Of a stretch of DNA of 64,000 bases, positions 25,748 to 30,033 are shown piece after piece. The DNA lies in contig FJOG01000001.1 of the NCBI GenBank assembly GCA_900073065.1, positions 3,059,124 to 3,123,123 of the forward strand. Direction: 5' to 3'. The notes below the pieces were generated by a model. That model did no database searches, was not told where the DNA came from, and saw nothing but the letters and a program-made list of their open reading frames with translations. The stretch comes from Phialocephala subalpina (lineage: Eukaryota > Ascomycota > Leotiomycetes > Helotiales > Mollisiaceae). Made by a program: the position numbers and the translations under genes. Every line of letters begins with the position of its first letter. Positions within the stretch are counted from its first letter, which is position 1.

Positions 25748-28700
25748 TTACTCCTTAGAATCCAGAATCCTAAGAGCTTGCTCTGCCGCTCTGATCATAG
25801 CTCCTTGCTTACAAGGGGCTGTTTGAGCGTCGCCAATTTGTCTTCCGTCTACTCGAACTATGCAACGATAATTGTTCGCTGAAGTTGACTCTGGTCTGTA
25901 AATTACGCTCCGATCGCCAACCAATTCTCCCAACCGGTTCTTTGGGTGCATGATGTCCACATTGTCCTGCATTAATCGACGCATGATAGGGAGTATTTTG
26001 AGTTTCTCAGCAAGCAGAGAACACTGGAGTATATCTCCATTACTGTCAGCATACACCGCGCCAAACAAGCTCCGCACGATTTCAGAGAAATATGCGTTGG
26101 CCTCCAAATTTGCAAGGTCTCGCCAAGGATAAGTCATACCAGAGGCCAGTGCAAGCCGAATGCCCTGAAGGGTTTCGGCATGCTTTTGGAGGAATTCTGC
26201 TCTGTCAGACACGATTTCAGAGTGATCAAGCCTCATAAAACTCCATAAAGGGATATTTCTTTGGCGCTGTACTTTGCAAAATTGACCAGGGCCAGATTGC
26301 TGGATATCGTGATAATCCAAACTTAAAGATGTATCGATACAGAGAAAAGCCAAAAACTCCTTGTTGATGGTAGCGGCCCGGAGAAGTTGTAGCTGGTTGC
26401 CTGAAACTATTTCGTTCTCATGATATAAAGATTCAACAATGATCATACTCAGAACACTGCTGCCAAGGACTGCTAGCCTTCCATATGAATAGGTTGCCAG
26501 GTCTTGTTCACACGAAGGATGTGTCATTGCTTCTGTCAAGATTGAGGTGTTATGGAACTTGTATCCCATCAACATTTCCAATGTCCCAAAATGAGGGCCC
26601 CCACCTAACTCTCGTCGACCGCAGGCCATCCTTAGAGAACAATCCGCAGGGTGTTCTAGGAGCTCTGGTATGAAGATCTGGGCACACTGGAGAGCTGTTT
26701 TGAGCTTCCCTTGTAGGTACGCCGTGCCGATTAAAGCCTCAACAACATTCGCTATTGCCTTCTTTGAAAGGTCTCTTGTTCTTCCAATATCACCAGCATA
26801 GGTGTCTGGTGTGTTCGGAAATTCGGAGGACCTTTCCTGACATGACTTTGTAACGATGAATTTATCTAGCCCGGTCCGCAGGGCCATTTTGGATATATGT
26901 GCGTTCGAGATGATTAACTTTCTCTTAGCAGAAAGGCACCCCTCATGCCAAGTGGTATGTGCAGTAAATAGTTTGCCCATGACCAGAAAGTCCAAGACAG
27001 TATCTCCAAGGAAGGCAAGACCAGTGTTGTTTGACTGAGCATTGGCAGAGGGCAAGCAGAGGGCTTGAGCAACCAGGTCTACTCTGTTTAAGTGCACGTT
27101 GAGCTGGAGTCTGTCCACCATTTCCCCACCCAACAACAGAGTTTCTAGATGATAAAGTATGTGTGGCACGAATTCAGCGAATCGATTGTGATCGTGCAGC
27201 CATTTTGTGACGTTTGTGGCTTCTGCTTCTTGAGATATAGGGACAGAGACGAGGGGCACCGCTGAACGTGTCCCGTGGTGTTGTTCTAGAGGAGCATCAC
27301 GTGACCCTTCGAAATTGTCGATCGAGAAATGTCGAATCCATGCTCGAAGCTCATCTTGTGTTATTGGCGGTGCAAATTGAGCTAAGGAGCTATTTTGGCA
27401 GCTAGTGATACAAGTACCACAGACTTTCTGTAATATTGATTTGGTGCCGGCTGGACATGAACCAAGATGAAAATTGACTAGATCTGTAATCTCTTCTGAG
27501 TCGTCGATGCAAATCTCGCACCGGATCCCTTGCTCTGGTAATGGAGACCACGGCAGTGAACATATCTGGGTTGGAAGCATGAGCTTTGTCGAAACAACCA
27601 CTTCGCCTGCGACCCGAACCTTGACGGAATTCAGGTATCTTTTTTTCGTGGTAGCGCTTTTCTTGGCTATGTCAAGCCATGGGTTGTGTTGTTGCTGAAT
27701 CTTAACCATGGAAGATAAATCTTCTGTAGACTTCGTCTCTTCGAACTCATCTCCTGGCAGCAATGGCAATATATTATCATTCAATAAACCGGCCTTGTAG
27801 AGTCCCACATAGGCTTGGAATGCTGCATCTTTGGCTGCCATATTCTCCTTTTGCCAGCTACGGAGCGATGATGCTTGACGAACGGAAGGATGAACTGAGT
27901 TTGGAAGTGTCACGAATCCCCGGATGAGACCTGTGGTACTTTCTGTTTGGAAGGTGAATGTTGGGCGACTGTCCAAGTAGCGATAGGCAGGCAAGGTTGC
28001 ACAGAAATGGTGTAAATGCCCTACGGCTTCGTCTAGAGTGAGTCTCGCCCTGGGAAAGTCAGCTATGTAAGAGGCCTGTGTGGGTTTTACCAACCCAGTT
28101 GATTCAATTCTCAAAGTCATAGAGTCGTCCTCGATCTCATCAGGAACTCTGCGCTCTTTATCATCTAACTGCCGTGACTCTCTCATATACTCCTCAATCA
28201 TCTCAGACTCCATTCTCTCCCAGGCTGCTCCCAGATCTGGATTATCATCTGAAGATAACAAGATCATAAACGTAGATTTCTCATGTCTTGCTCTACCTCG
28301 CCTTTGAATGAACGACTTCAAATTTGGCGGTTTGTTGAAACAGATGACTACATTGCATGCTGATACGTCAATGCCTTCCTCAAGGGCGCTGGTGGCGATG
28401 ATAATATTTTTGCTGCCTTCACAAAAATTCTTTAGTACTTCTCTCTGACATTTCTGATCTAGGAGGTCGGCCAATTCCGTCGTTCTACTTTGATTTGTCG
28501 AGGTACCCACGAATGTACCGCTGGTGAAGAGATTCTTCGTTTCGGGGTGTTCTGAGAGAAGTTGACAAAGTGCAATAGCGGTTACTCGCTGCTCGACAAA
28601 GATAAGGCCTCGGAAATCCTTGTTATAAGCACCTTTCAAAAAACGAAAGAGGTAGTCACATTTATTTGAGATTTTTTGAAGTGACGGAGGGTTTAGAGAC

Positions 28701-30033
28701 TCGGCAACTGGAATTTGCCCTAGCGTATTGAGGATGTGGATCCTTTCTTCATCTTTCCAGTCGAGGTGTGTATTTTGTTGTAAATGCATAGATAATGTTG
28801 CACGAGATATTGTAGCGGAAATGTAGTAGTCAGAAGCCCAAGCTCCAAGTTCTTGTTGAATATATCGAGACCGAGCAGAGAATCTCTTTAGCTGTTCTTG
28901 TGCGGATGTGCTCCAATTTCGTCCTCTCATAGAGCTTTTAGAGAGACCTGCGGTTTCTTCTGCAGACAGGAGACAAGGTTTGTACCCCAACCATTGGTTC
29001 TCAGAGTCTTGAACACGGTCGAGTAGCGATTTCAACGTAGAAGACTGTGCTTTGGAGCTGAGACCATTTTCAGGATAGACAATTTTGATCAGCTCAGGAA
29101 TGTGGACATGCCGGGCCAGCTCCTGCCGGTTGATGCGAGGAGTCTTAGTAATTGAATCCAGATTGGCCTCAATAACTCTTTCGTGTAATAAGTTAGTGAA
29201 TACCATAGATTATACATCAAATGCAAACTCAGTGCATAGAGTTCAACTTACCGAAGTTCTTCCGGTTTTGACCGTACAATGGGACTGGCGGTCAGGCCTA
29301 GAATCTTGGGTCTGGAAGTCGAACCCAACTCTGCCCCCCGATGGTGATAGTATCCCTTCATAATCTTGTTGGCGGGGTGGTTACGGACACAGTGGTGCGC
29401 TGTTGGGTCATATGATTAACTGAGTCGGAAAGCAGGAAGGATGCTAACCCTCATCAAATATCAAGAGTGCCAACTTTGCCATGACTACAAATCCATGACT
29501 TAACGCGTCAGCCAAAACTGCATACGTAGATACTACTATCCGCGCTCCAGAGAGTGCAGTATCCCAGATATGCTGCGAGCTCCATCGGTCGACGTTATCA
29601 CGACCCAACAATAGCCTTATTCCTACTGATGGTAGGTGAAGAGAGAGGACATTGTATTGTTGTTCGCAAAGTGAAACAGTTGGAGCCAAGAACCATATTA
29701 TCTAGTAATTATCATTAGCAGCAGTGAATGCCGACGGGCAGATATAGATGACCTGTGAAGCTTGACAGATTTCAAGTTCTGCAGAAATGCGTAGTACTGC
29801 TCTACCAGGGCAATTGAAATTAGCTACGTAGTGTCCTTTCACTAGAGTTAAACTTACATTTGAGTCTTCCCACTTCCAGTGCCCATCTGTTAATTCGTCA
29901 ATATTCATCTCTTCGGGCTTATGGCTTCACTGACAGCAACGATGATGTTTCCTTTCAAACTTTCTTCCAACATCTCTAGCTGGTAAGCCCGGGGGCGTAT
30001 ATTCGTCTCTGCAAGTAGTCCCAGCGTGGCCAT
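25748..30033 (-). CDS. Dicer-like protein with degenerate RNase III centres
   Basis: Six exons (30033-29935, 29886-29858, 29801-29753, 29701-29449, 29399-29252, 29177-25748) join in phase to about 1,335 aa. The start gives RPRAYQLEMLEESL; the helicase core has Walker A GTGSGKT (about residues 35-41), DEAHH (about 143), ILGLTAS, ATSALEEGIDV and QRRGRAR (about 483). No PAZ domain is seen. The size and layout are closest to fungal DCL2. RNase IIIa (about 912) reads LAFLGDTVLDF and ANVVEALIG: the usual LEFLGD Glu is Ala and the ADxxE Asp is Asn. RNase IIIb (about 1095) reads LAVLGSSVLSM and SEIVRSLFGAVY: all four metal-binding acids are changed (E to A, D to S, D to E, E to R). A weak dsRNA-binding-like C-terminus follows. 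The frame is uninterrupted, arguing against recent decay. It may bind or translocate on dsRNA without cutting. Confidence 0.93.

Follow-up and report, generated by a model that had tools for sequence, protein, structure and literature searches.

The Dicer-like gene and its domains

The window, that is, the whole stretch of 64,000 nucleotides analysed, lies on a 3.9-Mb contig (C51) of the 68-Mb genome of Phialocephala subalpina, a root endophyte of the order Helotiales, family Mollisiaceae. On its reverse strand it carries a gene of the DCL2 family of Dicers (25748-30033), whose product is without the canonical metal-binding quartet E-D-D-E in either RNase III domain and is referred to here as the pseudo-Dicer. 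The gene consists of six exons (30033-29935, 29886-29858, 29801-29753, 29701-29449, 29399-29252 and 29177-25748), separated by GT..AG introns of 48, 56, 51, 49 and 74 nt. Splicing and translation yielded 1335 codons with a single terminal stop and none internal, in agreement with the coordinates, strand, length and six in-phase exons given in an earlier note on this DNA. The product is identical to the public protein P0002 (P. subalpina, 1335 aa), which bears the name 'related to Dicer-like protein 2'. Within exon 6, a stretch of 45 nt (28050-28094, reverse strand) is in frame, begins with GT, ends with AG and contains GCTGAC, which we take to match the branch-point consensus. The 15 residues that it encodes are absent from both Hyaloscypha gene models (P0009 and P0010; H. 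variabilis and H. finlandica). It is probably one more intron, which would bring the exon total to seven. The position of the first intron (after ..IIVA or ..VIVA) was found by eye to correspond in the paralogues on contigs C46 and C115, which speaks against a retrocopy.

The helicase N lobe (residues 1-192; 29254-30033, with borders placed on an alignment) is encoded by exons 1-5. It contains the Walker A sequence GTGSGKT (29863-29883), the DEAH box, which starts at 29455 and is interrupted by the intron at 29400-29448, and LTAS (29284-29295). A HEL2i-like insert (residues 193-372; 28640-29253, an approximate border) is followed by the helicase C lobe (residues 373-515; 28211-28639, Pfam Helicase_C) with QRRGRAR at 28286-28306. 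Helicase motifs I, II, III and VI are thus present, and all four sequences, previously described as intact, were read in the spliced product. Next come DUF283, the Dicer dimerisation domain (residues 589-666; 27758-27991, Pfam Dicer_dimer, E 9.4e-24), and two domains matching Pfam Ribonuclease_3, RNase IIIa (residues 890-1034; 26654-27088) and RNase IIIb (residues 1050-1250; 26006-26608). In the genome search both RNase III domains passed the Pfam cut-off of 27, with 60.8 and 42.5 bits. The C-terminus (residues 1262-1335; 25751-25972) is without a Pfam dsRBD match and is dsRBD-like in the predicted structure model, where a helix, three strands and a helix follow one another. All these features lie on the reverse strand.

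Metal-binding sites of the RNase III domains

Canonical Dicers carry E-D-D-E in each RNase III domain, at positions E40, D44, D107 and E110 in the numbering of the Aquifex enzyme. RNase IIIa of the pseudo-Dicer reads A-D-N-E: E40 is replaced by A914 (codon GCC, 27014-27016), D44 is kept as D918 (27002-27004), D107 is replaced by N1003 (26747-26749) and E110 is kept as E1006 (26738-26740). RNase IIIb reads A-S-E-R, with A1095 (GCA, 26471-26473), S1099 (AGC, 26459-26461), E1225 (GAA, 26081-26083) and R1228 (CGG, 26072-26074), all on the reverse strand. The loss of two acids from RNase IIIa, as claimed before, is therefore right. For RNase IIIb a loss of all four had been claimed; three are gone, while D107 became Glu and the position is still acidic. 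In comparison with fungal DCL2, six of the eight metal-binding acids are changed, one of them from D to E.

Acids restored at shifted positions were looked for and none was found. The 120-protein and 294-protein alignments place the same residues at the motif, and so does a pairwise match to Arabidopsis DCL1 (7eld). Sequencing error and C-to-T damage by repeat-induced point mutation (RIP) are poor explanations for the losses, because the change from E to A takes an A-to-C transversion and because 15 other sequences have it in both domains.

The expected effect can be judged from the mutant table of Escherichia coli RNase III (PMC8708148). In that table, E117K, E117A or E117Q abolishes cleavage while binding is kept; D45A is inactive in vivo and low in vitro, yet binds; and E41A and D114A, which bind little dsRNA (double-stranded RNA), are weakly active when magnesium is in excess. 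By this analogy RNase IIIb should be dead and RNase IIIa weak or dead, and loss or near-loss of cleavage would be the result.

A clade of degenerate DCL2 proteins

Three protein searches, from which the best 120 matches each of 464, 1627 and 902 were taken, gave 294 distinct proteins, the window's own included. In one alignment, canonical E-D-D-E was present in both domains of 273 proteins. Losses were found in 16, among them the pseudo-Dicer itself; these are set apart from the other 278, where the only departures from all eight acids are gaps over parts of RNase IIIb in four proteins and a single change from D to N in RNase IIIb of P0294. In a tree of the 16 and 34 others, midpoint-rooted and built without DCL1 sequences, the degenerate proteins made up one side of a branch with full support (SH-aLRT, the Shimodaira-Hasegawa-like approximate likelihood ratio test, 100), within a supported group of 30 rows that also holds canonical DCL2. 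As judged from the sequences, the pseudo-Dicer is no isolated oddity but a member of a clade that shares the loss, inside DCL2.

E40 is replaced by Ala in both domains of all 16 members. At the remaining RNase IIIa positions, 15 members keep D44 and one has N instead; D107 is replaced by N in 14 and retained in two; and E110 is unchanged in 10, Q in five and K in one. In RNase IIIb, 15 members have S and one has N in place of D44, D107 is replaced by E in 12 and retained in four, and E110 is replaced by R in 14 and by Q in two. The early-branching P0016 and P0019 retain both D107 and E110 in RNase IIIa, as expected under stepwise loss of the site. Identity to the window's protein falls as low as 47-58% in the clade, and open frames of at least 1145 aa were found in 10 of the 16 (P0002-P0010 and P0012).

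These counts bear on the idea of a residual nickase, in which RNase IIIb is dead and RNase IIIa still nicks one strand. The retention of D44 and E110 in P. subalpina would allow it, as would the E. coli enzyme, where a single E41A or D114A is weak and not dead in excess magnesium (PMC8708148). However, both lesions are combined in RNase IIIa of P. subalpina, and E110 is Q or K in six of the 16 members and D44 is N in one, so that the clade as a whole has not preserved a catalytic site here. A nickase is thus an improbable explanation.

Constraint on the helicase and on the reading frame

A site was counted as conserved when one residue was present in at least 95% of canonical DCL2 proteins, and the clade was scored by majority. 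The clade kept 72 of 73 such sites in the helicase against 29 of 42 in the RNase III domains (Fisher p 5e-6); metal-binding positions are six of the 13 lost RNase III sites. Divergence of each domain was also expressed relative to the whole protein, in 36 clade pairs, which come from nine sequences and are not independent, and in 58 disjoint canonical pairs. Values for clade and canonical pairs, respectively, were 0.50 and 0.80 in the helicase C lobe, 0.38 (three pairs only) and 0.77 in the N lobe, 1.02 and 1.27 in HEL2i, 1.07 and 0.98 in RNase IIIb, and 1.04 and 1.11 in the dsRBD region. In four disjoint clade pairs the ratio of helicase C lobe to RNase IIIa (HELICc/IIIa) was 0.41, 0.41, 0.83 and 0.47 (ranks 1, 1, 16 and 3 of 59); the median of the canonical pairs was 1.03. 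The helicase is thus held tighter and RNase IIIa somewhat looser than usual, and the RNase III part is far from free drift.

When exon 6 was drifted without selection to 93% identity, a level close to the tip branch length of P. subalpina (0.066, 0.087 and 0.084 in three trees), a mean of 4.3 stops arose and three of 500 runs stayed free of stops; at 94% identity, 10 of 500 did. The argument is weaker for the other clade members, owing to survivorship in public sets of open reading frames (ORFs).

If the gene were a pseudogene at an early stage of decay, or a remnant persisting neutrally, this would account for the catalytic losses and for six shorter frames in the clade, and a truly broken Dicer does occur elsewhere in the genome. 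This canonical-type relic on contig C8 (L030:1659-2137) is left in pieces in different frames. It matches a canonical Leptodontidium Dicer at 78% identity across 63 residues and at 54% across another stretch, and it shows what a decaying Dicer looks like in P. subalpina. Against decay stand the open frame of 1335 codons together with the drift simulation, the 72 of 73 helicase sites kept, and the same loss in 16 lineages. A young pseudogene was therefore rejected as unlikely, and decay or neutral persistence is rated very improbable. The proposal of the earlier note that selection has preserved the gene for a non-cleaving role gains support from the 16-member clade, its ten long frames and a helicase conserved at the canonical level.

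Other Dicers of the genome and surroundings of the gene

The search for a canonical DCL2 in the same genome was positive. One DCL1 (contig C31) and two DCL2-type genes (C46, P0087; C115, P0262) were found, together with one separate RNase III on C34. The pseudo-Dicer is one of four full Dicer genes found in P. subalpina. The genome paper counts four Dicers, four Argonautes and five RNA-dependent RNA polymerases (PMC5148876), and its passages on these genes carry no remark on the pseudo-Dicer gene.

The gene on C115 is shared with Acephala macrosclerotiorum (P0265), on a long separate branch (0.77), and is of canonical DCL2 type; P. subalpina thus has at least three distinct DCL2-type lineages. 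Argonaute-type matches were seen on C67, C36 and C35, and a Piwi-domain match with nine stop codons at C87:33185-34126 (L028).

A dead long terminal repeat (LTR) retrotransposon occupies 16737-24840 of the window and ends about 0.9 kb from the stop codon of the Dicer gene. Its LTR match spans 261 bp at 94.6%, and its RIP indices are strong: TA/AT is 1.18-1.93 in the 500-bp steps that cover 17001-25000, whereas the coding part of the Dicer gene has 0.67. The previous description of an adjoining dead transposon is borne out. On the other side, an ORF at 31416-32378 on the forward strand, divergent from the Dicer gene, has an OTT_1508-like deaminase domain (PF14441, E 1.7e-21). Three ORFs of the 2EXR family (PF20150) at 1942-2823, 4446-5090 and 8223-9080 form a small local cluster within 8 kb.

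Possible spread between fungal families

The pseudo-Dicer of P. subalpina (Mollisiaceae) is 87.0% identical to that of H. variabilis (Hyaloscyphaceae) over 1318 columns, whereas identity between the two Hyaloscypha species, H. variabilis and H. finlandica, is 85.7% (1316 columns). Canonical DCL2 of P. subalpina reaches 57.5-60.0% identity to that of ten other Helotiales, and a canonical paralogue is 89.7% identical between P. subalpina and A. macrosclerotiorum, a near relative. No canonical DCL2 of Hyaloscypha was named among the 120 matches listed of 902 for the P. subalpina DCL2 query, which does not imply its absence.

Thirteen clade members, P. subalpina included, branch in a burst without resolved order above a long stem (0.37; 0.28 in the 50-protein tree). 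The quick 50-row tree pairs P. subalpina with H. variabilis (SH-aLRT 94), but careful trees do not, and the test spoke neither for nor against a clade of these two alone (p 0.228). A constraint that groups only H. variabilis with H. finlandica was strongly rejected (p 2e-12), because the environmental copy P0006 is the sister of H. finlandica. A fairer five-row Hyaloscypha-side group without P. subalpina was not rejected in the approximately unbiased (AU) test (p-AU 0.096). The distances thus suggest horizontal transfer between families, and the topology does not prove it.

The gene may instead have descended vertically with unusually slow change and without transfer between families. Tree tests leave room for this, since a Hyaloscypha-side group without P. 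subalpina stays allowed (p-AU 0.096 and 0.119), as do 12 rows without P0002 (0.177). The greater identity across families than between the two Hyaloscypha species argues against it, as do the far lower values of canonical DCL2 across ten Helotiales and the 89.7% of the canonical paralogue with Acephala. Long stems of 0.59 and 0.28 in the degenerate clade speak against general slowness. P0002 is the sole member of its 90% cluster, and the 120 matches listed include no Acephala protein. Vertical descent is accordingly rated as rather unlikely.

With respect to a carrier, a search for Starship cargo, in which only the best candidates were scored, gave 25 DUF3435 matches in the genome and none on C51. 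A compositional sign of foreign origin was also looked for and rejected: GC content at third codon positions is 0.451 in the pseudo-Dicer, a little low and not distinctive, since four stretches from the other Dicers have 0.50-0.56 and seven ORFs of the window 0.46-0.56. In our judgement, passage from one root fungus to another would be better explained by defence or counter-defence than by a housekeeping role.

Proposed function

Taken by its sequence, the pseudo-Dicer has very probably been retained by selection as an essentially non-cleaving protein. It would be a DCL2-family protein that keeps an ATP-driven dsRNA helicase, DUF283, a paired RNase III fold and a dsRBD-like end. With its two metal sites dismantled, it would be incapable of the normal paired cleavage. 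Beside three active Dicers, it would bind dsRNA and hydrolyse ATP.

Several observations weigh against this. RNase IIIa keeps D44 and E110 in P. subalpina and might still cut one strand weakly. The RNase III part may also bind RNA less well, as E41A and D114A of E. coli, both low in dsRNA binding, correspond to the positions lost in RNase IIIa. Six of the clade's 16 members have frames of only 697-759 aa. Sequence over Walker A and DEAH is present in three members and over motif VI in 10, with the motifs intact in each. Finally, RNase IIIa diverges somewhat faster, relative to the whole protein, in the clade than in canonical pairs (0.93 against 0.75).

If the protein is indeed non-cleaving, a role as dsRNA sensor or helper is plausible, although its probability is put somewhat short of even. 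A non-cleaving dsRNA ATPase of this kind would help or trigger RNA silencing against foreign dsRNA, in the manner of Caenorhabditis elegans DRH-1, which is described as working with Dicer (PMC11095941). A fuller proposal is made only tentatively: root-associated Helotiales would possess a naturally evolved Dicer that has become a non-cleaving sensor of dsRNA resembling RIG-I, or a modulator of silencing, that acts beside active Dicers and that has moved horizontally between fungal families as a portable defence or anti-silencing gene.

A dominant-negative decoy would explain the same sequence facts as a sensor, namely the losses in the clade and the conservation of the helicase. Such a decoy would bind and shield dsRNA, or pair with and poison the active Dicers, three of which are available for regulation, and silencing would be damped. 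In that case, what spread between fungi would have been a brake on silencing, or a gene working on behalf of a mobile element or virus. An ATPase would be superfluous in a pure decoy, and yet the helicase is more tightly conserved than that of canonical DCL2 (a HELICc contrast that rests on the 36 non-independent pairs, with the four disjoint pairs ranked as above). A decoy is considered rather unlikely.

Relation to known systems and significance

The pseudo-Dicer resembles fungal DCL2 in its intact helicase motifs, DUF283, two RNase III domains and, more tentatively, its dsRBD-like end, and is nested among DCL2 in the tree. From its sequence it is thus DCL2 by descent, and it lacks the catalytic hallmark of Dicer as an enzyme. 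Its descent and its retained RNase III fold distinguish it from RIG-I, MDA5, LGP2 and C. elegans DRH-1. In addition, about 12 residues precede its helicase, which leaves no room for CARDs, and the Pfam matches of exon 6 include no RIG-I C-terminal domain. A likeness in principle only exists with KREPB6-8 and kin of the trypanosome editosome, whose degenerate RNase III domains are kept for partnership. These editosome proteins are without the Dicer helicase and have a role in mitochondrial editing. Editosome endonucleases are reported to need two related RNase III proteins, one of them catalytic (PMC9508840).

Among the titles and abstract openings listed in searches of the open-licence literature, a scope that leaves subscription journals and preprints outside, none names a natural pseudo-Dicer clade, and passages of a 2025 survey of fungal Dicers make no mention of degenerate or inactive RNase III sites (PMC12663654). 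Dead-site Dicers are engineered as laboratory tools, for example a catalytically inactive Arabidopsis DCL1 (PMC12825306). Routine annotation overlooks the pseudo-Dicer because its RNase III domains still pass the Pfam cut-off and because of the name under which it is filed. Its co-residence with three active Dicers makes the proposed role directly testable.

The apparent spread between fungal families had not been foreseen in the earlier note. A natural clade in which both cutting sites were lost and the motor survived would demonstrate that, in fungi, the helicase portion of Dicer can be selected for a task of its own. The pseudo-Dicer would then parallel the animal split between Dicer and the RIG-I-like receptors, in a cell with three active Dicers.
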